This document shows, piece by piece, positions 26,743 through 43,072 of a DNA stretch of 64,000 bases. Every line of letters starts with the position of its first letter. Within the stretch, counting starts at the first letter, position 1. The position numbers and the translations under genes are program-made. Below the pieces are notes generated by a model. That model worked only from the letters and a program-made list of their open reading frames with translations, ran no database searches and had not been told where the DNA came from. The DNA is from Candidatus Acidiferrum typicum (GTDB taxonomy: Bacteria > Acidobacteriota > Terriglobia > Acidiferrales > UBA7541). The stretch covers positions 1 through 64,000 of the forward strand of contig JAOAPV010000063.1 in assembly GCA_025463055.1 (NCBI GenBank), in the 5' to 3' direction.

Positions 26743-26901
26743 TTTCGTCTCCAAGAGAGCAATATCAGAATAGCGAGCACCACAATGGGCGTCAATCTGT
26801 AAACACTACCTAAGTACACAAAGTCGCATACGTACAGCATTCACTGTACGCACAGCTGGGCTGGTGGCATCGTGCCGTCGCTGTTACAATGCCATTACTG
26901 T

Positions 26902-27948
26902 ATGGCCGACTGGAAACAGATTACCGCTCGAATACGCCGCGCTCGCACTGGAAAAGACCCCGCCGCGCAACTTTCTAATCTCTATCAGAAGACGCGTGAC
27001 GCAATGGTCGCTTTTGAACTGGCTAAATTTTTCGAGACCGATGGCCAAAATGGCGAAGCGGCGAAATGGTATTCCACCGCCGCCGAGCGTTTTCGCCGCG
27101 CGGATTGGAAGACCAAGGCGCAAGAAGCCGCCGTGCGTCTCGGAGGCTCGGGTTCCTCTGCAGAGACAGCAGCGCAAGCTGACGAACTGCAAGTTTCCAC
27201 GCCTATGCTTTCTGTTCCCGAGCCCGCCTTGCCCTTTGAACAGACTGCAGAAACATTTGAAGCCATTGTCGCTCCCGCGGCCGAACCTTCTGAAGGTACG
27301 ATCGCCGAAGCGCCGCGACGCGGTACGCGCCGCCGTGGCCGTCGCGGTGGCCGCAATCGCCGGAAAGCCAGCACCACCGCTGAACAGCCTGCGCGTTCCC
27401 CTGTCGTGCCGGCGGAAACCCCGGTCGAGCAGGCCCCGCCTCCAGTTGACGAAGCTCCCGAGCCTCGATTTAGCAGGGTTAGCGAATCCGTCTCACCGCG
27501 CCGTCCATCGTCTGAACCGGTCTCCGACAGCGCGGCTTCTTTGCGCGGCCGCTACGGTGACCCCGGCCTGTCGTCACGCCTTTCGCTGCTGGAAATGCAA
27601 TTTCGTCGCCTGCTGACCTGCGCTCCGCTGACCATTAGCGAAGCCGATCGTGCTCCCGTCGGGCCTGGCGTGCTCCTCCTCAGCGATTCCGACCTTTCCA
27701 CCTACTATTACGTAGAGCCATGCCAGACCCTGCGCATCGCCATCGGCAGTTTTCTGCGCGGTACCGCTAGTCGCCGCGGCTCCGATTCCATCAAGCCGCG
27801 TTTGGCGGAACATCTTGGAATTGCCGAAACGCGCGTAGCAAAATATCTTGCCGATCACTGTGTCGTGCGCTATCTGCAACTCGACGACGGTGCTTCCCAC
27901 TTCGCGCATTTTGTTACCGCCGTCCTGCGTCCTGCGCTAAACGACTGA
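26902..27948 (+). CDS. Unknown protein: TPR-like N-terminus, Arg-rich linker, GIY-YIG-like C-terminal domain
   Basis: Three segments are visible in this 348-residue protein. Residues 1-85 (MADWKQITARIRRARTGKD, VAFELAKFFETDGQNGEAAKWYSTAAERFRR) look like a helical-repeat unit. Residues about 90-220 are low complexity, with an Arg/Gly-rich basic patch (RRGTRRRGRRGGRNRR) and Pro/Glu-rich flanks. The last about 115 residues (PVGPGVLLLSDSDLSTYYYVEPC, IGSFLRG, IKPRLAEHLGI) recall a GIY-YIG-like nuclease fold in order of elements, without clear catalytic residues. Nucleic-acid binding through the basic patch is plausible but unproven. ATG 26902 has TACAAT 11 bases upstream and no ribosome site. Confidence 0.5.
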   Translation: MADWKQITARIRRARTGKDPAAQLSNLYQKTRDAMVAFELAKFFETDGQNGEAAKWYSTAAERFRRADWKTKAQEAAVRLGGSGSSAETAAQADELQVSTPMLSVPEPALPFEQTAETFEAIVAPAAEPSEGTIAEAPRRGTRRRGRRGGRNRRKASTTAEQPARSPVVPAETPVEQAPPPVDEAPEPRFSRVSESVSPRRPSSEPVSDSAASLRGRYGDPGLSSRLSLLEMQFRRLLTCAPLTISEADRAPVGPGVLLLSDSDLSTYYYVEPCQTLRIAIGSFLRGTASRRGSDSIKPRLAEHLGIAETRVAKYLADHCVVRYLQLDDGASHFAHFVTAVLRPALND

Positions 27949-28287
27949 AGTAGGTTCCGCGCTCGCGCAAAATGGGCTTTCCTCAGCCGACAAAAAGGGG
28001 CGTTTTTCCCGTCGTTCGCCCTACAAGTAACCCCACCCGAATTCCCGTTCGACCCCCGTTTTTCCCCGTTCAACCCCTCTTTTTCGCCATTCAATGCAAC
28101 TGACTGGCTTCCACGCACATAACCGTTAAACTATACAGGTCCAAAGACTTATTGGGCGTTTCTACCCGGCGTGATACGGTATTTAGAAGCCCGGGGGCAA
28201 TCGCTGCAATCTTTGTAGCGTTTGGCGGGCTTCTTAAAACGCATCAAGAAATTTTAATTACCTGGCGAAAGTGGAGGGTAGAGGTTT
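27949..28287. other. Intergenic region upstream of the radical SAM gene
   Basis: 339 bases without a gene. It contains the tandem repeat at 28044-28084 and an A/T-richer stretch (28095-28290) that should carry the promoter of the radical SAM gene; GAGGGTAGAGG before ATG 28288 is its ribosome site. No confident -35/-10 pair was picked. Confidence 0.4.
28044..28084. repeat. Two-copy pyrimidine-rich tandem repeat
   Basis: CCCGTTCGACCCCCGTTTTT at 28044-28063 is followed after one base by CCCGTTCAACCCCTCTTTTT at 28065-28084, matching at 17 of 20 positions with a period of 21. On the other strand it encodes NGEK-like peptide repeats, but no gene is credible there. Confidence 0.55.
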
Positions 28288-30507
28288 ATGCCGAATCGAG
28301 TAGGCACTCAAGTGATGCGAGCGGTTGACGCTACGGTCTGCAAAGCAGCCAGCGTCACCTTCAATGCGATTCAACATTTCAACAAGCGCAATCCGAATCC
28401 ATCGTTCACCCCAAAATGGTCGGATAAGCCGCTTCTAAAGTCGTGGGAAAAGACCAAGCCGACCCTCGGCTGGCCACGGCAGACCGATTCGCTCTGTCCC
28501 GATTGCGTCAAAGAGGCCCGCGAAGCCATTATTCACGGAAAAAAAGATTGGCGCGACCTGATGAACGAAAAGGTCGGCGAAATTAAGGCACAAATCGTCG
28601 AGCGCGACGGCGAAGTTTGGATGATCAAAGACTGCCCCATCCATGGTCACTACGAAGACATGATGGCCATCGACGCAAAGTTCCTCGACCACATCGAAAA
28701 GCAGTTCCCGGGCCGCGATATTCCCGCGCACAACGACGAAGATCTCCACAAGCATGGCTCCAGCACGGTTCGTTATGGCCGCGGCTCCGTTCTCACCGTT
28801 GACCTCACCAACCGCTGCAACATGATGTGCGACCCTTGCTTCATGGATGCCAACCAGGTTGGCTACGTCCACGAGCTGGGCTGGGATGAAATTCAGGAAA
28901 TTTTGGACAACGCTCTGCGCATCAAGCCCCGTCGTCAGATGTCCGTCCAGTTCTCCGGCGGCGAGCCGACGATGAGTCCTTATTTCCTCCAGGCTGTCGC
29001 CCACGCCCGCAAAATTGGCTACAACAGTGTGCAGGCCGCCACGAACGGCATCGAATTCGCCAAGAGCAAGGAATTTTGCAAGAAGGCCTTTGAGGCCGGC
29101 ATGCGTTACGCGTACCTGCAGTTCGACGGCATCGGCAACGACGCCAACGGACATCGCCAGGTCGGCAACCTTTTCGACGTGAAGCTCCGCGCCATCGAAA
29201 ACATGCACGAAGCCGGCATCGAAATCGTGCTGGTCGTAACGATCGTAAACAACGTCAACAACGATCAGGTCGGCGCCATCGTCAAATTCGCGATGGAAAA
29301 CCCGAAGAAGATCGCCTTCGTCAGCTTCCAGCCCGTTTCTTTCACTGGACGCGACGAAGACATTACTCCGGAACGCCGCCTGCGGCAGCGCTACACGCTT
29401 TCGCACCTCGCGCAAGACGTTAGCCAGCAGGTCGGTAAAGTCGAGCCTACCCGCGACTGGTTCCCCATCTCGTTCATCGCCACCTTTGCCGGATTCTCTG
29501 ATCTCGTGCACGGTCCTGATTCGCAGTGGGGCGCGCTTTCCTGCGGCTGCCATCCCAATTGCGGCGTCGGCACCGCGATCATGATCAACAAAGAGACCAA
29601 GGAGTGGGCGCCGGTTCCGCGCTTCCTTGACGCGCAACAGCTCGTCAAGGACGTCACCGCCATTACCGATGCGGCGCGCGGCAAAGCCTTCTCGAACTTC
29701 ATGATGGCTCTCGCGCTCCTCAAGAATTACAAAGCGTTCCAGGGGCCAAAGGGTCTGACGCTCTACGATCTTTTCAAGAAGTTCGACAAGACTTGGGCGC
29801 TCACGAAGGACTCTGAGAAGAAATACGGCAAGACCTCTCCGGACCGCACCTACGAAGACGCCATGAAGCGCCGCCAGACCGATCCATGGAACTTCCTGTT
29901 TATCGCCGGCATGTGGTTCCAGGATCTCTTCAACTACGATTTTCGCCGCACAGAAATGTGCATCATTCCGTACGCCACGCAGCAAGGCGAAATTTCCTTC
30001 TGCGCGTACAACACCGGCGTAGGCTGGCGCAAAATCATTGAGAACATGCACAAGAACGCGACCGTCGCCGAGTGGTACAAGACGCACGGCAAGCATGAAA
30101 TCTACGCCAAGGGCAAGAAGGTCGATCTCAACACGTACGAGCACTCTTTGAAGATCGACGCCGATGACGCCGCGCGTGTCCGCCACCTGGAACACGACAT
30201 TCCGCAGACCGCCGCGGAAGAAGATCGCGCCCGCCGCAAGAAGGCCTACGAAGAACAAGCCAAAGTTCGCGCCATCTACGAAGAATTGGTGCTGAAGAAG
30301 GCTCAGCCCACGGTTGTGCAGATCGGCTCCGTAAGCGATATCGCCAAGTCCGTCCCAGCCAATTTCGCCAACGCTGGCAAGCCGGTAAGCATCGCGCCAG
30401 CCAACGGCAATGGCAACGGCCACAGCAATGGAAACGGCAACGGCTATTCCAATGACAGAAACGCCACAAAGAAAGAAGAAGCCGCCGAAGCCGTAGCCGG
30501 CGACTGA
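28288..30507 (+). CDS. Radical SAM enzyme, Tes/Mss-like candidate membrane-spanning-lipid synthase
   Basis: The 739-residue protein has a metal-binding N-terminus (C70-PD-C73, then DGEVWMIKDCPIHGHYEDM with C116/H119), a radical SAM core with CX3CX2C at C177, C181, C184 (LTNRCNMMCDPCF) and GGEP at 224-227, the block FVSFQPVSFTGR (345-355), a second Cys cluster CGCHPNC (419-425), and C558/C572 near the end of the core. This order matches archaeal tetraether synthase (Tes) and bacterial Mss proteins, which join lipid hydrocarbon tails by C-C bonds; Acidobacteriota are rich in iso-diabolic acid. Product assignment is inference. The last 50 residues are an odd Asn/Gly repeat tail. Single gene with its own terminator. 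Confidence 0.8.
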   Translation: MPNRVGTQVMRAVDATVCKAASVTFNAIQHFNKRNPNPSFTPKWSDKPLLKSWEKTKPTLGWPRQTDSLCPDCVKEAREAIIHGKKDWRDLMNEKVGEIKAQIVERDGEVWMIKDCPIHGHYEDMMAIDAKFLDHIEKQFPGRDIPAHNDEDLHKHGSSTVRYGRGSVLTVDLTNRCNMMCDPCFMDANQVGYVHELGWDEIQEILDNALRIKPRRQMSVQFSGGEPTMSPYFLQAVAHARKIGYNSVQAATNGIEFAKSKEFCKKAFEAGMRYAYLQFDGIGNDANGHRQVGNLFDVKLRAIENMHEAGIEIVLVVTIVNNVNNDQVGAIVKFAMENPKKIAFVSFQPVSFTGRDEDITPERRLRQRYTLSHLAQDVSQQVGKVEPTRDWFPISFIATFAGFSDLVHGPDSQWGALSCGCHPNCGVGTAIMINKETKEWAPVPRFLDAQQLVKDVTAITDAARGKAFSNFMMALALLKNYKAFQGPKGLTLYDLFKKFDKTWALTKDSEKKYGKTSPDRTYEDAMKRRQTDPWNFLFIAGMWFQDLFNYDFRRTEMCIIPYATQQGEISFCAYNTGVGWRKIIENMHKNATVAEWYKTHGKHEIYAKGKKVDLNTYEHSLKIDADDAARVRHLEHDIPQTAAEEDRARRKKAYEEQAKVRAIYEELVLKKAQPTVVQIGSVSDIAKSVPANFANAGKPVSIAPANGNGNGHSNGNGNGYSNDRNATKKEEAAEAVAGD

Positions 30508-30536
30508 ACTCCTAATGTTGTAGGGACAGGCTCAGA

Positions 30537-30566
30537 ACGCCTCCGGTTACCGGAGGCGTTTTCTTT
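30537..30566 (+). terminator. Rho-independent terminator after the radical SAM gene
   Basis: ACGCCTCCGG (30537-30546) and CCGGAGGCGT (30550-30559) form a perfect 10-bp stem with a TTA loop, followed by TTTCTTTT-type tail. It lies 30 bases after the radical SAM stop. Confidence 0.9.
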
Positions 30567-30766: not shown

Positions 30767-30785
30767 GGATGTGCTATGCGATACT
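30757..30785 (+). promoter_or_regulatory. Transposase promoter, TTGACA-17-GATACT
   Basis: TTGACA (30757-30762) lies inside the left inverted repeat and is followed after 17 bases by GATACT (30780-30785). The expected transcription start falls on or next to ATG 30792, so the transposase mRNA is probably leaderless. Confidence 0.6.
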
Positions 30786-30791
30786 TTGTCC

Positions 30792-31769
30792 ATGAGCACA
30801 CCAGTCAAGCTTCCCAAGACGTTGCAGGAAGCGGTTAGTTTTTTCTCTGACCCGCAAAAGACTTTCGATTATGCGGTGTCTCTGCGCTGGCCTACAGGCA
30901 AAGTCACTTGCCCGCGCTGCGAATCTACAGAGCACTCCTTCATCTCGACGCGCCGACTTTGGTACTGCAAGGGATGCAAGAAACAGTTCACCGTCAAAGT
31001 CGGAACCATCTTTGAGGATTCCGCGCTCGGCATGGATAAGTGGATGATTGCTGTGTGGATGATTGTGAACTGCAAGAACGGAATTAGTTCCTATGAAATC
31101 GCCCGCGCTCTGGGCATCACGCAAAAATCCGCTTGGTTTATGATGCATCGCGTTCGCCTTGCAATGCACAATAAGGATTTTGTGAAACTCGGCGGCCCTG
31201 GTAGCGAAGTCGAAGTAGACGAAACTTTCATCGGCGGCGCTGCCAGATTCATGCACTCGGAACGGCGCAAGCGTGTGATTACAGAACGCGGAGTGAAAGA
31301 CAAAATGGCCGTCATCGGTATTCTGGAGCGCGGCGGCAAGGTCCACGCTAACGTCATCCCGACTCGCCGCAAGCATCATCTGCAAGGTGAGATTCGCGCT
31401 CACGTCGCAGCCAAGAGCGCGATCTACACCGATGCGCTCATGTCGTATCAGGGACTCAATCCAGACTTCGCCCACAAAACGATTGACCATGCCGAGCGAT
31501 ATGTTGAAGGACAAATCCATACCAACGGACTCGAAAACTTTTGGTGCTTGCTCAAGCGCGGATTGAAAGGCACGTACATTGCAGTAGAGCCGTTCCACCT
31601 GTTTCGATACGTAGACGAGCAAGTTTTCCGCTACAACAATCGCGCCACCAAAGACCACTTCATTGGAGACGGCGACCGCTTTCAGATAGCTATGTCTCAT
31701 ATTGCAAACCGTCGAATCACCTACGAGCAACTGACTGGCAAAGGCACCGACGCCGTACATCAAGCCTAG
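30792..31769 (+). CDS. IS1595 family transposase (ISXO2-like DDE)
   Basis: The 325-residue transposase has an N-terminal zinc ribbon (CPRCES ... WYCKGCKKQF), a helix-turn-helix-like region (GISSYEIARALGITQKSAWFMMHRVR) and the ISXO2-like catalytic core with EVDETFIGG (first Asp), YTDALMSY (second Asp) and HTNGLENFWCLLKRGLKGTY (Asn/Glu region). No stops or frameshifts are present, so it is likely active. ATG 30792 is preferred over GTG 30771 because the promoter in the terminal repeat would start transcription at about 30792. Confidence 0.93.
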   Translation: MSTPVKLPKTLQEAVSFFSDPQKTFDYAVSLRWPTGKVTCPRCESTEHSFISTRRLWYCKGCKKQFTVKVGTIFEDSALGMDKWMIAVWMIVNCKNGISSYEIARALGITQKSAWFMMHRVRLAMHNKDFVKLGGPGSEVEVDETFIGGAARFMHSERRKRVITERGVKDKMAVIGILERGGKVHANVIPTRRKHHLQGEIRAHVAAKSAIYTDALMSYQGLNPDFAHKTIDHAERYVEGQIHTNGLENFWCLLKRGLKGTYIAVEPFHLFRYVDEQVFRYNNRATKDHFIGDGDRFQIAMSHIANRRITYEQLTGKGTDAVHQA

Positions 31770-36707: not shown

Positions 36708-38036
36708 CTATTCGTAGCGAAGGGCTTCGACGGGATCGAGGCGCGCGGCTTTCCAGGCGGGGTACACGCCAAAACCGATTCCGATGAACGCGCACAGGAC
36801 CAGTGCGGTAACGATCCAGAAGACAGAGAGTGTGGCGGGTACGCTGAGACCGTAGCGCAACAGCAGGGTGAGTCCGGAGCCGAATAGGACGCCGATTATG
36901 CCGCCGATGGCGCTGAGCGTAACCGCTTCGATCAGAAATTGCGCGAGGATGCTGTTGCGCCGCGCGCCGATGGCTTTACGTACGCCGATTTCGCGGGTGC
37001 GTTCCGTTACGCTCACCAGCATGATGTTCATCACACCGATGCCGCCAACAATGAGTCCTACGGATGCAACCGCGAACATGAGCAGGAAGACGAGGCCGCT
37101 GATTTTGTTCCACAGATCGAGAAAATAGTCAGAAGTAAACAGCGCGAAATCATCGGGCTTGTCGCTGCTCAACCGGCGTTTGCGTCGCAGGAGTTCACGC
37201 ATTTCCTCGACAGCCTCGCTCACCATTGTGGGGTCGGAGGCTTTGGCGAAAATCACGTAGTCCTTTTTGTTCGGGTACAGTTTGCGAAGCGTAGTCACCG
37301 GCATAACCGCGATGTTGTCTTCCGGATTTGCGCCGCCGGAGATGCCCTGCTTGCGCTTTTCCATGGTTCCGATGACGGTGAACAATTGCCCGTTCAGGGT
37401 CACTTCCTGGCCGATACTTTGGGAAGCGTTCTCCGGAAAAAGAATGCGCGCGGTGTCGTACCCGAGCATGACCACGGGCGTGCGGTGATCGGTATCGTTC
37501 TGATCAAACGGGCGCCCGAACTGAATTTTCATGTCGAAGATGCGATTGATGGACGGCGAATTTCCCTGAAGAATTACGTTCTTAGCACGGTACGCGCCGC
37601 GACGCACGTCCGCGGTGCCCGACCCGAACTGCGGCATGAAAATCCGCATCGAAGGAGATGCCGCGAGAACATGCGGCAGCTTTTCCATGTCTTCGGCCCA
37701 TTCGGGCTGGAGCTCCTTGCGTGTGAACCAGGCGCTCGGAGGATGCGAGAGACCAGCCCAGGGAAATCGGTACGCGATGATGGTGTCTGATCCGAGCTCG
37801 CGAATGCCTGCAAGCACGTTATCATTCAGGCCGTTGATCATGGCGCTGACGGTGATTACGGTGGTGATTCCAATCACGATGCCAAGAATGGTGAGTGCCG
37901 AGCGCAGAGGATTTTTTCGCAGCGTATCCAGCGCCAGTACAAATTCCTCACCCAATGCGGAAGCTCTCGGTTTCCGCACCAGCGAGCGAACGGGCAGCGT
38001 GACCGTCTGAGGGAATGTTTTGCCAAGAGTTGCCAT
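36708..38036 (-). CDS. MacB/FtsX-type ABC transporter permease (1)
   Basis: A 442-residue protein with one N-terminal membrane helix (RSALTILGIVIGITTVITVSAMING), a large periplasmic MacB core domain, and three C-terminal helices of the FtsX domain (LVFLLMFAVASVGLIVGGIGVMNIMLVSVTERTREIGVRKAIGARR). It ends VEALRYE, as usual. MacB-type transporters act mechanically on periplasmic substrates such as peptides, lipoproteins or toxins. Gene 12 bases downstream of the paralogous permease; no ATPase or membrane-fusion protein is in the window. Confidence 0.9.
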   Translation of the reverse strand: MATLGKTFPQTVTLPVRSLVRKPRASALGEEFVLALDTLRKNPLRSALTILGIVIGITTVITVSAMINGLNDNVLAGIRELGSDTIIAYRFPWAGLSHPPSAWFTRKELQPEWAEDMEKLPHVLAASPSMRIFMPQFGSGTADVRRGAYRAKNVILQGNSPSINRIFDMKIQFGRPFDQNDTDHRTPVVMLGYDTARILFPENASQSIGQEVTLNGQLFTVIGTMEKRKQGISGGANPEDNIAVMPVTTLRKLYPNKKDYVIFAKASDPTMVSEAVEEMRELLRRKRRLSSDKPDDFALFTSDYFLDLWNKISGLVFLLMFAVASVGLIVGGIGVMNIMLVSVTERTREIGVRKAIGARRNSILAQFLIEAVTLSAIGGIIGVLFGSGLTLLLRYGLSVPATLSVFWIVTALVLCAFIGIGFGVYPAWKAARLDPVEALRYE

Positions 38037-38048
38037 GGTTGCGCTTCG

Positions 38049-39290
38049 TTACTCCGACCTTAGAGCATCCACCGGATCGAGCTTCGCAGCTTTCGATGCG
38101 GGATACGTACCGAAGAACAGCCCAACGGTAAGCGCCACAAGCAATCCGCCAAGCACCGACCAGAGCTGCACCGCGCTGGGCAGCGGCGAAACCCACGATA
38201 CCACCTTGGCCAGCAGCACTCCTAGAAATACGCCGAGCGCGCCGCCGATCACCGCGATGGTGGAAGACTCAATCAGGAATTGCCGCAGAATGTCCCCGCT
38301 GCGCGCGCCGATGGCTTTCCGCAATCCTATCTCGCGGGTGCGCTCGGTGACGGATACCAACATGATGTTCATGATCACGATGCCGCCGACGACTAGAGAA
38401 ATGGAAGCGATGCCGATGGTCACCACAAAAAATGTGCCGCTGATGTTCTTCCACAATTCCAGAAAGGAATCGCTGGTTTCCACCGCGAAGTCGTCTTTCG
38501 TGGCGTAGGCGAGATGGTGGCGTCCGCGCATGATTTGGCGCACCTCATCGACGCTCGTTTGAATATGCGCAGCAGCGCCGGCGCGCACGGTCACGCGCAA
38601 GGAATCCTGCTGATTGCCGTTTTCCTTGTTGTAGGTGCTCAATGGCAAAATGATCCAATTGTCGAGAGAGGTGCCCAGCGCTGAACCTTCTTTTTTGCCG
38701 ACGCCGATCACCTGGCACGGCGTGCTGTTCCAGCGGATTTCTTTGCCGATGGGATCGACTCCAGGCATGAGATTTTCCACCAGGTCTTGGCCGATCACGC
38801 AAACGGGCGCGGCGGCGCGCAGATCGGTTTCTGTCAGGTGGCGCCCGGCGACGAGATCGACGTCGTAGAGCTCGGCCATTTGTGGCGTCCATGCGCGCAG
38901 GTTCGTGTCCTTCAAGGAATTCAGGCCGCTCTTCGTCTCCACTCGCCCGCCCAGTGCGGCGCCTACGTCCTTGCAGGAGTTGCAAAGGTCGCGCACGGCT
39001 TCAAAATCTTCATAGGTGATGCGCTTGCGCTTCTGAAATTCCAGGAAATCGTCGACATTGGTGATGATAGAAGGCTGTTTGGATAGGCCGAAAACGTTCG
39101 CGCCAAGGCGGAAAACCCGCGTGGCAACGTACTGGTTGGCACCATTGATCAGGCTGACCACGGCGATGACCGAGGTGACGCCAATGACCACGCCGATGAG
39201 CGTGAGCACACTACGCAGCTTATGCGCCCAGAGGCTGGACGTAGCAATAGACACGGCCTCGGTGAGATGCATGCTGGATGCGCGTGGCAT
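38049..39290 (-). CDS. MacB/FtsX-type ABC transporter permease (2)
   Basis: A 413-residue paralogue of the previous permease, transcribed first. It has the N-terminal helix RSVLTLIGVVIGVTSVIAVVSLING, a periplasmic MacB core containing a CNSCKD pair that could form a disulfide, and the FtsX block (IASISLVVGGIVIMNIMLVSVTERTREIGLRKAIGAR) ending VDALRSE. Both permeases retain full domain structure, so they may form a heterodimer. The start is ATG 39290, or ATG 39272 (MHLTEA) as an alternative. Confidence 0.88.
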   Translation of the reverse strand: MPRASSMHLTEAVSIATSSLWAHKLRSVLTLIGVVIGVTSVIAVVSLINGANQYVATRVFRLGANVFGLSKQPSIITNVDDFLEFQKRKRITYEDFEAVRDLCNSCKDVGAALGGRVETKSGLNSLKDTNLRAWTPQMAELYDVDLVAGRHLTETDLRAAAPVCVIGQDLVENLMPGVDPIGKEIRWNSTPCQVIGVGKKEGSALGTSLDNWIILPLSTYNKENGNQQDSLRVTVRAGAAAHIQTSVDEVRQIMRGRHHLAYATKDDFAVETSDSFLELWKNISGTFFVVTIGIASISLVVGGIVIMNIMLVSVTERTREIGLRKAIGARSGDILRQFLIESSTIAVIGGALGVFLGVLLAKVVSWVSPLPSAVQLWSVLGGLLVALTVGLFFGTYPASKAAKLDPVDALRSE

Positions 39291-39448: not shown

Positions 39449-42400
39449 TTAGAACGTGACTTTGACGCCGAACTCCATAGAGCGTGGCGCGCCGATGGCG
39501 AAGACACCGGAACCGAGACCAATGAGACTAGTCCTGCCCGTGCATTTCGTCGGATCGGCAGGGCAACCTGCCTGGTCGAACTTCGTCGTTCCATTGACGG
39601 AGTTTGTTGCGCCATCCAACGTTCCCGCCAGCAGCGCGTCAGGACCGTTGTGGTTTTGGCGGTTAAAGAGATTGTAGAACGCCGCCTGCGGTTCGATGCG
39701 GAAGCGCTCCCAGCTATGGATTGGCTTGATGGACCAGCCGAGGCGCACATCAAAGGTAAAGAAGGCGTCGTTGCCCACATTTCCCGGCGGTGCCAAGGTG
39801 AACTTCGGTCCGCAGCCCGACGCGGTGTCGAGCGAAGGCGTGACAGCGCAAAGGGAGACAAGCTGGTCCTGCGTAAAAAGTCCCGCAGACACGAGAGCTT
39901 GGCCCGCAGGGGTCAGCTTGTTTCCGGAATTGTCGCTTAGCGTCTGCAGGAATTTATTGAGATCTCCGGCTTTGATATCACGGCCAAAGGAACCAATGTT
40001 TGAACCCGGCACGGGAGCGAGCGTTGTCTGGCCGTCACCTAGGGTGTCGAACTGGAAGATGTCCTGGCCGTTCCCCGGAGCCGCATATGTAAGGGTCTGG
40101 GGCAAAGCTGAGTACCAGTGGCTGATAAAATTCGCGTGAACTCCGCCCGGCAGGTCCATCATCACGCCTGCGGAGAGCTGATGGGTGCGATCGAGCCCGG
40201 TCGGGCCAAGGAAGCCAGCTGGATTGTTGTAGTCAACCGCGTTGTTGATGAAATCCCCGTCGCTTGCCGTACCCTTGTAGCGGGATAGTGAGTAGGAAAC
40301 GGTCGCGTTCATATGCCGAACGAAATGAAACGGGCTCTTCAGGTCAGAGGTGAGCTTCACCTGCATTGCGTTGTACACCGAACGACCAACCGGTTCCAGA
40401 AATTGAACCTGGCCAAAGTTGGGGTTCTTGCCCGGGAACGCAATCTGCCCTGCTCCGACCGGAGACCCGCCTGTCCAGAAGTTCCCATCGGTCAGACCAT
40501 TGTTTGCGTAATCCGAGATCGTTGCTCCAGCGGAGATGGCGCAATTGATGCCCGCAGTGCCAGCCGGGCATACTTGGCCGCCTGACTTAAATTGGGCGTT
40601 CGTTGCGTTGATTGCCGCTAAGGCGCCGGTTTTGTCCAGGAACCGTGCATCTCCTACGTGATTTTCGTCGATCGCCAAAAGCGTGTGAGTGCTGATGTTC
40701 CGCAGGTAGTCCACCGAAACGACTGTGCCAGGCTTCAGCTCATGTTGAACACCTATGTTCATTTGATACGAGCGAGGAGACTGGTAATTGGGCGAATAGA
40801 GGGTTACGCCGTTTACCGCCGCTCCCGCTGCCAGGGCGTTGCCAATGTAGCCTCCGTTCGCCTGCGCTCCGGCCTGCGCCGTGGATTGCTGGTATTGCTG
40901 TTGTAGAGCGATTACTTGGCTAACGACATTTCCGATCGGCTGATTGCAGAGCGCGGATGTGTTTACGACGGTCCCGTCGGGCAGGTTGAGTTTACCACCG
41001 GGGCAAATATCCTGCGTCAGATTGAATAAACCGGTAGTCAAGCGACCGGGTCTGTCGAACAGAACGTTATTGAAAACTGCGTTCTCGAAGTAAATGCCTG
41101 CTCCGGCGCGGATCGAGGTTTTGCCTTTCTTCGTCGGATCCCAAGCAAAGCCCAGCGTCCCGCCAACGTTTCCGTTTGCCTGGTTAACGGCACCTCCAAA
41201 TCCGGGGCGGACTTGATCGAGCAAGTTACCGGTGCAACCAATCGATGGAGCTGCACTGCAGGGAATCGGTCCCAAGTCCGAGTCGGAGCGTCCAGTGTCG
41301 CGGTTGTAGCGAACGCCGTAGACAAGGGTGAAGTTCGGTTTCACCTTCCAGTTGTCACCAACGTAAACCTGGAATCGGGAGTCAAACTGCCCTCCGCAAG
41401 TCTGGCCGAATTCTGCGATTTCTGTAAAACAACCCTGGCCGTTGCCCAGGCGAATGCGCGTCACCGGATAATTCAAGGGATTCGAGGCTCCGCCAGGGAA
41501 TGGCCCGCTGGCGGCAGCCTCTTCGGAACCACCGACACCGGTTGTGAATGCGGCGCGGATGGGTGGATCGATGCCGTAAAAGCTGGCGAAGCCGCCCCCA
41601 AGGATTCGATTGAAGCCGACCCCATAGCGGAAAATATGGCTACGATAGATCTTGCTTCCGTCGTACTTAAATTGTTTGTTGGACTGGTAAGTCTTCTGCG
41701 GCGCAAGAATGTTTGCGCCGGTGCAGATCAGCGCGGCGCCATCCGTGCAAGCCGTGCCGCCGTTGCCGATGTTGACCATCACGCCCGGCGCTATGTTGGT
41801 GATATTGGTTCCAGTCACCGAATCGGTGATGCCGTTGCGGAACTTCATATAACCGACCCGGATACTGTGCGTGAACGTACCAGAGGAGAAGTCCACGCCG
41901 CCTCCGAAGGAGGGGGTAAAGTCCACGTTTGCAAATGGACTATAGGTTCCCGGCACAAAGGCACCGACAGCACTGTTCTGCTCGTAGGTGTATTTGAAAA
42001 AGATGCGAATGTTTGACGTGGCGTTGTAGTCTAGACGCCCCAGCCACTGCTGGTCCCGGAAGGGGCTGTTGAACGTACCGCTCAAGTCCTGAAAAGGGGC
42101 AGACGGTCTGACAGACGCCAGCAGATCCTGTGTTGTCCTCTCACCGGTTCCAAACACGAAAAGCTTGTCCTTGATAATCGGCCCGCCCAGCGATACGCCA
42201 TATTGCTTGCGGTCAAAAACGGCCGCGGGATTCCCGAACTTGGCCGAGGTTGCATCGCCTCGATAGTTGAAGAAGCCATCGCCGTGAATCTCGTTGGTTC
42301 CCGAGCGCGTCGTGATGTTCACTGTGCCGGAGGAGGTGAGCTCGGTGGAGAGATCCAGGCTGGACTGGCTCACCTGAAACTCTTTAATGGAACCTACGGA

Positions 42401-43072
42401 AATGTTCTGCGTGGTGGTGCCGACGGTCTCGTCGGAGATGTCGAGACCGTCCACTTCGATGCGTGCGGTGCGGCCGAAGCGGCCGCCAAAGGAGATTGAA
42501 GAAAAGCCCTTCTTGGTAGGATCGAAGTTGCCTCCATCTTGGATTTGGACGCCGGGCTCAAGTTGAGCTAGATCGAGAAAGTTACGGCCGTTGATCGGCA
42601 GATTTTCGATCTGCTGGCTGGTGACGACACCTTGAATCGTGGCCTGCTCGGTGTTTACCGAGACGGCTGTGCCCTCTACGGTGATCACAGTGCTTGCTGA
42701 GCCTACTTCTAAGGTTATCGGTGCAGCCGTGATATTGCCGACCTGCACGGTTACAGTCTTTTCGACGGCCTTAAATCCCGCCGCTTCCAGGCGCACGACG
42801 TAATCGCCAGGGCTCAATGGGCCGGAATTGTACTCGCCGGATGGTGTTACGACAGGTGCGATTTTCGCACCTGTCGCCTTATTCGTGATGGTGACTTTCG
42901 CGCTCGCAACCGTAGCTCCATGTGGGTCCAAGATTGCCCCTTGGATGCTTCCAGTGGAAAGCCCCGCCTGTGCTTGAACCGCTGGTGCTAGAGCGAGACA
43001 TAGACAGATCGCGATGCATGCACTCGCTATGATCGCGACGAACGGTCGTGACGATTTCGACTTACTGCTCAT
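39449..43072 (-). CDS. Oar-like TonB-dependent receptor with carboxypeptidase-regulatory domain (2)
   Basis: The 1207-residue receptor has a signal peptide (SRPFVAIIASACIAICLCLALAPAVQAQ), a carboxypeptidase-regulatory domain (about 37-115: GSIQGAILDPHGATVASAKVTI, SGEYNSGPLSPGDYVVRLEAAGF), a plug domain (INGRNFLDLAQLEPGV, VDGLDISDETVG) and a barrel ending FGVKVTF. Like the first receptor it would use the TonB/ExbBD system to import a bulky ligand, unidentified here. GGAGGGGC precedes ATG 43072 and an intrinsic terminator follows. No SusD-like or glycoside-hydrolase partner is adjacent. Confidence 0.9.
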   Translation of the reverse strand: MSSKSKSSRPFVAIIASACIAICLCLALAPAVQAQAGLSTGSIQGAILDPHGATVASAKVTITNKATGAKIAPVVTPSGEYNSGPLSPGDYVVRLEAAGFKAVEKTVTVQVGNITAAPITLEVGSASTVITVEGTAVSVNTEQATIQGVVTSQQIENLPINGRNFLDLAQLEPGVQIQDGGNFDPTKKGFSSISFGGRFGRTARIEVDGLDISDETVGTTTQNISVGSIKEFQVSQSSLDLSTELTSSGTVNITTRSGTNEIHGDGFFNYRGDATSAKFGNPAAVFDRKQYGVSLGGPIIKDKLFVFGTGERTTQDLLASVRPSAPFQDLSGTFNSPFRDQQWLGRLDYNATSNIRIFFKYTYEQNSAVGAFVPGTYSPFANVDFTPSFGGGVDFSSGTFTHSIRVGYMKFRNGITDSVTGTNITNIAPGVMVNIGNGGTACTDGAALICTGANILAPQKTYQSNKQFKYDGSKIYRSHIFRYGVGFNRILGGGFASFYGIDPPIRAAFTTGVGGSEEAAASGPFPGGASNPLNYPVTRIRLGNGQGCFTEIAEFGQTCGGQFDSRFQVYVGDNWKVKPNFTLVYGVRYNRDTGRSDSDLGPIPCSAAPSIGCTGNLLDQVRPGFGGAVNQANGNVGGTLGFAWDPTKKGKTSIRAGAGIYFENAVFNNVLFDRPGRLTTGLFNLTQDICPGGKLNLPDGTVVNTSALCNQPIGNVVSQVIALQQQYQQSTAQAGAQANGGYIGNALAAGAAVNGVTLYSPNYQSPRSYQMNIGVQHELKPGTVVSVDYLRNISTHTLLAIDENHVGDARFLDKTGALAAINATNAQFKSGGQVCPAGTAGINCAISAGATISDYANNGLTDGNFWTGGSPVGAGQIAFPGKNPNFGQVQFLEPVGRSVYNAMQVKLTSDLKSPFHFVRHMNATVSYSLSRYKGTASDGDFINNAVDYNNPAGFLGPTGLDRTHQLSAGVMMDLPGGVHANFISHWYSALPQTLTYAAPGNGQDIFQFDTLGDGQTTLAPVPGSNIGSFGRDIKAGDLNKFLQTLSDNSGNKLTPAGQALVSAGLFTQDQLVSLCAVTPSLDTASGCGPKFTLAPPGNVGNDAFFTFDVRLGWSIKPIHSWERFRIEPQAAFYNLFNRQNHNGPDALLAGTLDGATNSVNGTTKFDQAGCPADPTKCTGRTSLIGLGSGVFAIGAPRSMEFGVKVTF

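Follow-up and report, generated by a model that had tools for sequence, protein, structure and literature searches.

The 64,000-nucleotide stretch of Candidatus Acidiferrum typicum DNA analysed here (the window) encodes, at 28,288-30,507 of the forward strand, a 739-amino-acid radical SAM protein that is tetraether synthase (Tes)-like and, by the tests made, not a full Tes. This type-B protein, as we call it and its relatives, belongs to a distinct Acidobacteriota branch of the tetraether-synthase superfamily and probably couples iso-C15 acyl tails to ester-bound iso-diabolic acid; its gene is the best candidate in the genome for making this lipid. What it acts on, what it makes and how the chemistry proceeds are all inferred by analogy with Tes.

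The open reading frame (ORF call, with Pfam, NCBIfam and PDB matches) starts at an ATG with a Shine-Dalgarno-like GGAGGG, read directly, 9 bases 5' of it (28,273-28,278, forward strand). A terminator-like hairpin of 13 pairs followed by a T-rich stretch lies just 3' of the gene on the same strand (30,534-30,562); seven terminator-like sites were found across the region against 3.7 expected, and the hairpin taken alone is weak evidence of a terminator. A long opposite-strand ORF overlaps the gene (28,435-30,423) and is unlikely to be the true gene because the forward-strand frame is conserved and has a low dN/dS. The relatives of the gene comprise 76 proteins, 61-91% identical, from 76 of 80 loci (the best 80 of 585). 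When the gene is compared with seven of its close relatives, dN/dS comes to about 0.05-0.12 (our own Nei-Gojobori script). The gene is under strong purifying selection.

Among NCBIfam profiles, Tes (NF045702) ranks first with 318.9 bits, short of its cut-off of 450 bits. TrsS (NF045646), 109 bits behind, reaches 209.9 bits against a cut-off of 490 bits, with its best stretch confined to residues 98-383, and MoaA is also a secondary match. A PDB search returns the GDGT-MAS structure 7TOL first (E 1.3e-58, or 1.1e-74 with the family profile as query), followed by MoaA at 2.2e-6. An AlphaFold2 model built from 77 sequences (mean pLDDT 76, pTM 0.80) matches 7TOM with Z 33.3 and rmsd 3.3 over 473 aligned residues (model 61-603), the next match being MoaA with Z 18.3, and Foldseek concurs (7TOM, E 1.9e-24). 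No methylase or maturase comes near the Z of Tes among the fold-search matches listed, an absence that by itself excludes nothing. The secondary TrsS and MoaA matches, together with the Pfam name HMPTM, which keeps the old pterin label of MJ0619, would suit a radical SAM enzyme acting on something other than lipids, either a pterin methylase or a maturase of the TrsS/MoaA kind. We regard this as quite unlikely, given the lead of the Tes profile over TrsS and the short TrsS stretch, trees that put type B on the Tes side with TrsS-like sequences outside (below), and a pterin role of MJ0619 that could not be corroborated (PMC9433317, available excerpt). The profile search and the structure comparison, both suggested in the initial annotation, bear out the Tes half of its family assignment: Tes is the closest family and 7TOM the closest fold.

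The other family proposed at that stage was bacterial Mss. The Mss of Thermotoga maritima, reportedly described by Sahonero-Canavesi in 2022, is proposed to couple acyl chains tail to tail, as is type B. Membership in Mss is not supported: T. maritima, the source of the mss gene that was expressed (PMC11604127, available excerpt), gave no match to NF045702, either at 1e-40 or at 1e-25, which is an indirect result at the profile level. When mss and ger were expressed together, no membrane-spanning lipid was formed, and a 2022 paper is cited for the activity of mss alone (PMC11604127, same excerpt); in models, Mss and Tes have a common catalytic architecture (PMC13274423, available excerpt).

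A phylum sample of 297 Acidobacteriota genomes was searched with the NF045702 profile. At 1e-40, 172 of the 297 genomes match, and 34 pass the cut-off. The proteins fall into type A, which scores 472-619 bits among the matches listed and is mostly 530-560 amino acids long, and type B, the type of the window, which scores about 314-350 bits among the matches listed and measures 626-849 amino acids in the 45 sequences aligned. A third set, type C, is TrsS-like and was found with NF045646. Genome type was assigned by score, and a type-A genome may also hold type B (at least three do, among the matches listed); the 129 B-only genomes are the 172 that match less the 34 over the cut-off and nine whose best E is weaker than 1e-75. 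The window protein is 35% identical to one type-A protein. Type-A proteins share domain order and the [Fe4S4]C site with type B but, unlike type B, keep the [Fe4S4]N cluster ligands (33/33 rows of the alignment), are rarer (34/297 genomes) and often occur with PlsA/Ger-type genes (24/34).

Metal ligands of MJ0619 (PMC9433317, available excerpt) were mapped onto an alignment of type-A, -B and -C rows with MJ0619, which omits matches below 400 amino acids and in which the fifth 'B3' row (L113) is a partial piece; the type-B ligand count omits eight rows (two copies of the window gene, five cases in which overlapping loci gave a gene again, and one partial piece). Every motif named in the initial annotation is present in the window protein: C70-x2-C73, C116-P-I-H119-G, C177-x3-C181-x2-C184, QPVSFTGR 348-355, C419/C421/C425, C558 and C572. 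The protein, whose features all lie on the forward strand, begins with a long helix (residues 3-32; 28,294-28,383) of modest hydrophobic moment (up to 0.55), confident in the model and outside the Tes-aligned part. A rubredoxin-like domain follows (residues 61-127; 28,468-28,668), recognised by Pfam as Zn_ribbon_HMPTM (PF23545, 51.1 bits), and its CX2C...CX2H site, C70, C73, C116 and H119 (Tes C9, C12, C33 and H36), is kept in 45/45 type-B rows. The radical SAM motif C177-x3-C181-x2-C184 (28,816-28,839), in a Radical_SAM domain (PF04055, 66.9 bits), is likewise kept in 45/45 type-B rows, and CX3CX2C is invariant in the alignment of 76 of 80 loci (the best 80 of 585). By alignment to Tes, QPVSFTGR (29,329-29,352) is the SAM/5'-dAdo loop, with Q348, S351 and R355 corresponding to Tes Q268, S271 and R275. 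Also by alignment, C425, the last of the C419, C421 and C425 group (29,542-29,562), is the first [Fe4S4]C ligand, and M542, C558, Y562 and C572 (29,911-30,003), aligned to Tes M439, C455, Y459 and C470, complete the site; its three cysteines and M542, which stands for the labile Met of Tes, occur in every one of the 45 type-B rows. The Pfam scan of the protein found no SPASM and no B12 domain. A low-complexity C-terminal tail (residues 687-739; 30,346-30,504; pLDDT < 50) looks disordered.

The window protein thus has in common with archaeal Tes/GDGT-MAS (MJ0619, 7TOL, 7TOM; NF045702) the 473-residue fold, the rubredoxin site, the radical SAM motif, the SAM loop, an [Fe4S4]C site of three Cys and a Met, and the Y459 position. 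However, it is only about 27% identical to MJ0619, lies below the NCBI cut-off, has lost the [Fe4S4]N ligands and comes from a bacterial host; it is also longer than Tes by about 60 residues N-terminally and about 135 C-terminally, and MJ0619 has Leu in place of C419. A Cys stands at this position in all 45 B and all 4 B2 rows, and in 3/33 A rows. By alignment, the [Fe4S4]N stretch (residues 150-163; 28,735-28,776) lacks ligands, with H156, S159 and R162 at the positions of Tes C77, C80 and H83. All four [Fe4S4]N ligands (three Cys, one His) are complete in 33/33 A and 14/14 C rows, while none of the four remains in the 45 B, 4 B2 and 4 B3 rows with letters there; eight rows of the type-B group (one B, three B2, four B3, the window protein not among them) carry a single Cys close to these positions without occupying any of them. 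The low pLDDT (< 50) of the model at 154-167, the former [Fe4S4]N stretch, is not independent evidence of cluster loss because the radical SAM loop is also below 50. The earlier reading of the motif set as that of Tes therefore stands for the radical SAM motif, SAM loop, rubredoxin site, [Fe4S4]C ligands and fold, and does not stand for [Fe4S4]N, whose ligands are gone, nor for the profile score.

Two trees were built, the first with every second B row (23/45) and without L113, the second with 51 rows, without the [Fe4S4]N stretch in its alignment and without four TrsS-like rows, three of which have long branches or share a locus with one. B, B2 and B3 form one clade (support 100/100), which joins the L044 and L046/L047 lineages (100/100) and is nested among bacterial Tes-like proteins; MJ0619 and the A rows L019 and L020 lie outside this grouping and TrsS-like rows are the outgroup, in a tree that carries a long-branch warning. 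Judged by this topology, 'type A' represents a grade rather than a clade. On the tree the [Fe4S4]N cluster was lost once, in the B stem, because A, C and Tes all have it and the tree needs one change. The three A rows with C419 (L044, L046 and L047) are exactly those adjoining B, and C419 would therefore have been gained before the loss of [Fe4S4]N.

TrsS-like radical SAM (seleno)proteins (NF045646) share the core and the N-terminal rubredoxin-like site with type B but differ in keeping the [Fe4S4]N ligands (14/14 rows), in their variable [Fe4S4]C ligands and in their outgroup position. One acidobacterial genome (L099) contains a TrsS-type gene with an in-frame TGA, likely a selenocysteine codon. 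Within the B clade, B3 is a paralogue 41-44% identical, found in some genomes of the window's genus, and its four full-length rows (L209, L210, L211 and L214), which lack the [Fe4S4]N ligands, have also lost C425 and C558. With only one [Fe4S4]C cysteine left out of three, B3 indicates that function has drifted within the clade, and these paralogues possibly catalyse a new reaction.

Ether-forming genes, which according to the initial annotation must lie elsewhere, were sought as PlsA/Ger-type PF09989 genes, and none was found in the organism's own genome (98.9% complete), while the T. maritima control matched. PF01869 matches three ORFs in this genome (347-502 amino acids; 105, 22 and 22 bits), shorter than most PF09989 ORFs. 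Across the phylum sample PF09989 is present in 69/297 genomes: 24/34 type-A, 17/129 B-only, 26/125 without a match and 2/9 of those set aside. The difference between type-A and B-only genomes has a Fisher p of 1.6e-10, which is too small since the genomes are related, and that between B-only and no-match genomes a p of 0.13, its significance overstated for the same reason. PF09989 occurs in 17/61 relatives and in 5/36 genomes of the window's genus, own genome included. Thus, type B does not travel with the PlsA/Ger ether route. The own genome has 26 Radical_SAM matches in all, and no second Tes homologue was found in it: its other NF045702 matches score at most 63 bits, the level of the general radical SAM core and therefore expected background. 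Since neither a second Tes homologue nor a PlsA/Ger-type gene was found in the genome, the product is more likely to be ester-bound than to be a tetraether.

These data also bear on whether the protein is a true tetraether synthase that acts on ether lipids and makes branched GDGTs (brGDGTs) in the organism. Its relation to Tes is in keeping with such a role, some Acidobacteriota make brGDGT (PMC13274423), and Edaphobacter aggregans, which makes brGDGT, has a B-like homologue (PMC8941075, PMC10087280, available excerpts). Nevertheless, we consider this role very improbable, given the lack of a PF09989 gene, the score below the Tes cut-off and the association of PF09989 with type A far more than with B alone, albeit among related genomes. 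E. aggregans makes some brGDGT, and therefore ester-only output is no rule for genomes with B-like genes.

Type B is widespread among relatives of the organism. At E <= 1e-60, 58 of the 61 relatives' genomes match (own genome included), one only via a 42% identical paralogue. Within the genus, 33 of the 35 other genomes match, G318 only via the 42% paralogue, and G299 and G317 have no match. Among named contigs, those closest to the window (L124-L128, within the best 80 of 585) belong to 'gp2' Acidobacteria MAGs, the aligned ones being 89-91% identical, so that the window probably comes from the uncultured Acidobacteriota group 2. One contig titled Gemmatimonadetes (L173, also among the best 80 of 585) carries a type-B gene 71% identical, through misbinning or transfer. 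Among the best 80 of 585, and as a record of presence only, named type-B contigs come from Korobacteraceae, Acidobacteriaceae, Solibacteraceae, Bryobacteraceae, Pyrinomonadaceae and Chloracidobacterium. We take Korobacteraceae and Acidobacteriaceae to be subdivision 1, Solibacteraceae and Bryobacteraceae subdivision 3, and Pyrinomonadaceae and Chloracidobacterium subdivision 4. Subdivisions 1, 3, 4 and 6 are reported to contain iso-diabolic acid (PMC13274423), at 20-40% of fatty acids in Acidobacteria of subdivisions 1 and 3 (PMC13274423), and so is Chloracidobacterium (PMC12816986, available excerpt). The overlap in subdivisions 1, 3 and 4, drawn from published group-level statements, fits a role of type B as the coupling enzyme. 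Subdivisions 8, 10 and 23 are not known to contain iso-diabolic acid. Of 26 genomes with type B that were searched, 25 gave no match over the Tes cut-off, among them a Chloracidobacterium MAG (completeness not given); the exception is a Bryobacteraceae MAG.

The gene stands alone in the window, as was said of it at the outset, between a 358-amino-acid protein for which no Pfam family scores above its cut-off (26,872-27,948, forward strand) and an IS1595-family (ISXO2-like) transposase recognised by Pfam, directly downstream (30,771-31,769, forward strand). The upstream protein, on the same strand, recurs in 15 further loci, each of which had been collected for its relationship to the window gene. 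ORF clustering of 126 loci (123 distinct B proteins, some contigs having been fetched twice and some loci being short) was used to look for a lipid partner; once the cluster of the gene itself, to which tandem and other radical SAM genes belong, is set aside, no neighbour family occurs in more than 16 loci. For eight example neighbours, Pfam matched SurE, a VTT-domain protein, PGM/PMM, DUF2203, a beta-lactamase-family protein, a sensor kinase and an AMP-binding enzyme, and left the eighth without a match; as none recurs in more than 16/126 loci, neighbour genes were rejected as lipid partners and attributed to chance. Ten genes near a tandem A+B pair (L048-L050) include nothing lipid-specific, and L049 has one further radical SAM/SPASM gene there. 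Elsewhere in the window, two tandem MacB-like permease genes (36,708-39,290, reverse strand) adjoin a large outer-membrane-barrel protein (39,449-43,072).

In the mechanism proposed by analogy with Tes, the substrates would be ester phospholipids. The radical SAM cluster and SAM would generate a 5'-deoxyadenosyl radical, which would take a hydrogen atom from an unactivated iso-terminal methyl; the resulting carbon radical would be parked on a sulfide of [Fe4S4]C, held by C425, C558, C572 and the labile M542, and a second radical, made likewise, would attack the parked carbon to form a Csp3-Csp3 bond. Iso-branched acyl tails and phytanyl chains end in an identical isopropyl unit (PMC8941075, available excerpt), and MJ0619 was crystallised with a bacterial phospholipid in its pockets (PMC9433317, available excerpt). 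The coupling of acyl tails to iso-diabolic acid is favoured by Tes being the best solved match, by the fold match, by the retained ligands including the Met, by the nesting of B in a Tes-like clade, by the presence of the gene in most relatives' genomes and by strong purifying selection. Against it stand the score below the Tes cut-off, the loss of ligands for one of the three [Fe4S4] clusters of Tes, the lack of a recurrent lipid gene nearby and the drift in function of B3.

Alternatively, the protein could act on hydrophobic chains with another outcome, namely intra-lipid cross-links, coupling to another chain, or desaturation or methylation of tails. The missing [Fe4S4]N ligands, an invariant C419 absent from archaeal Tes and the long N- and C-terminal extensions are compatible with this, and the radical SAM enzymes Gms and Grs modify lipids in other ways (PMC11186832, available excerpt). 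However, the protein keeps the whole [Fe4S4]C site, labile Met included, which in Tes is linked to C-C coupling (PMC9433317, available excerpt), and Pfam finds no SPASM or B12 domain, so that we hold another product to be unlikely. Returning to iso-diabolic acid, we propose tentatively that type B might be its synthase in soil Acidobacteria. It would derive from Tes, would have acquired C419 first and then lost the surface [Fe4S4]N in a single event at the stem, and would act on ester phospholipids with no need of ether genes, type A being the form that serves makers of ether lipids (brGDGT). The shedding of [Fe4S4]N would perhaps suit aerobic cells.

The general idea that bacterial Tes homologues make such lipids is already published: Zeng 2022 described 456 of them, named Koribacter, Solibacter and E. 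aggregans and proposed a role in brGDGT formation (PMC8941075, available excerpt). By identity, the Koribacter and Solibacter homologues are probably type A, whereas the single E. aggregans homologue, at 32% (PMC8941075, same excerpt), fits type B rather than type A. In a proposal by Halamka, diethers are coupled by one of the Solibacter Tes homologues or by both (PMC10087280, available excerpt), and the activity of bacterial Tes homologues is called unconfirmed in the available part of PMC11868695. A literature search, mostly outside subscription journals, found no paper on the A/B split or the loss of [Fe4S4]N and no tested acidobacterial coupling enzyme by name. The split into types, the cluster loss and the contrast in ether genes appear to be new.

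Iso-diabolic acid resembles the alkyl chains of brGDGTs, which are used as climate proxies. A conserved candidate, single-copy in the genome, and the contrast between type A with ether genes and type B mostly without them make the question testable. If type B couples lipids, its natural loss of [Fe4S4]N would mean that the chemistry does not require this cluster, and the B3 paralogues without two [Fe4S4]C cysteines would represent a further step to a new reaction. Membrane-spanning lipids would then extend to the uncultured Acidobacteriota of group 2.
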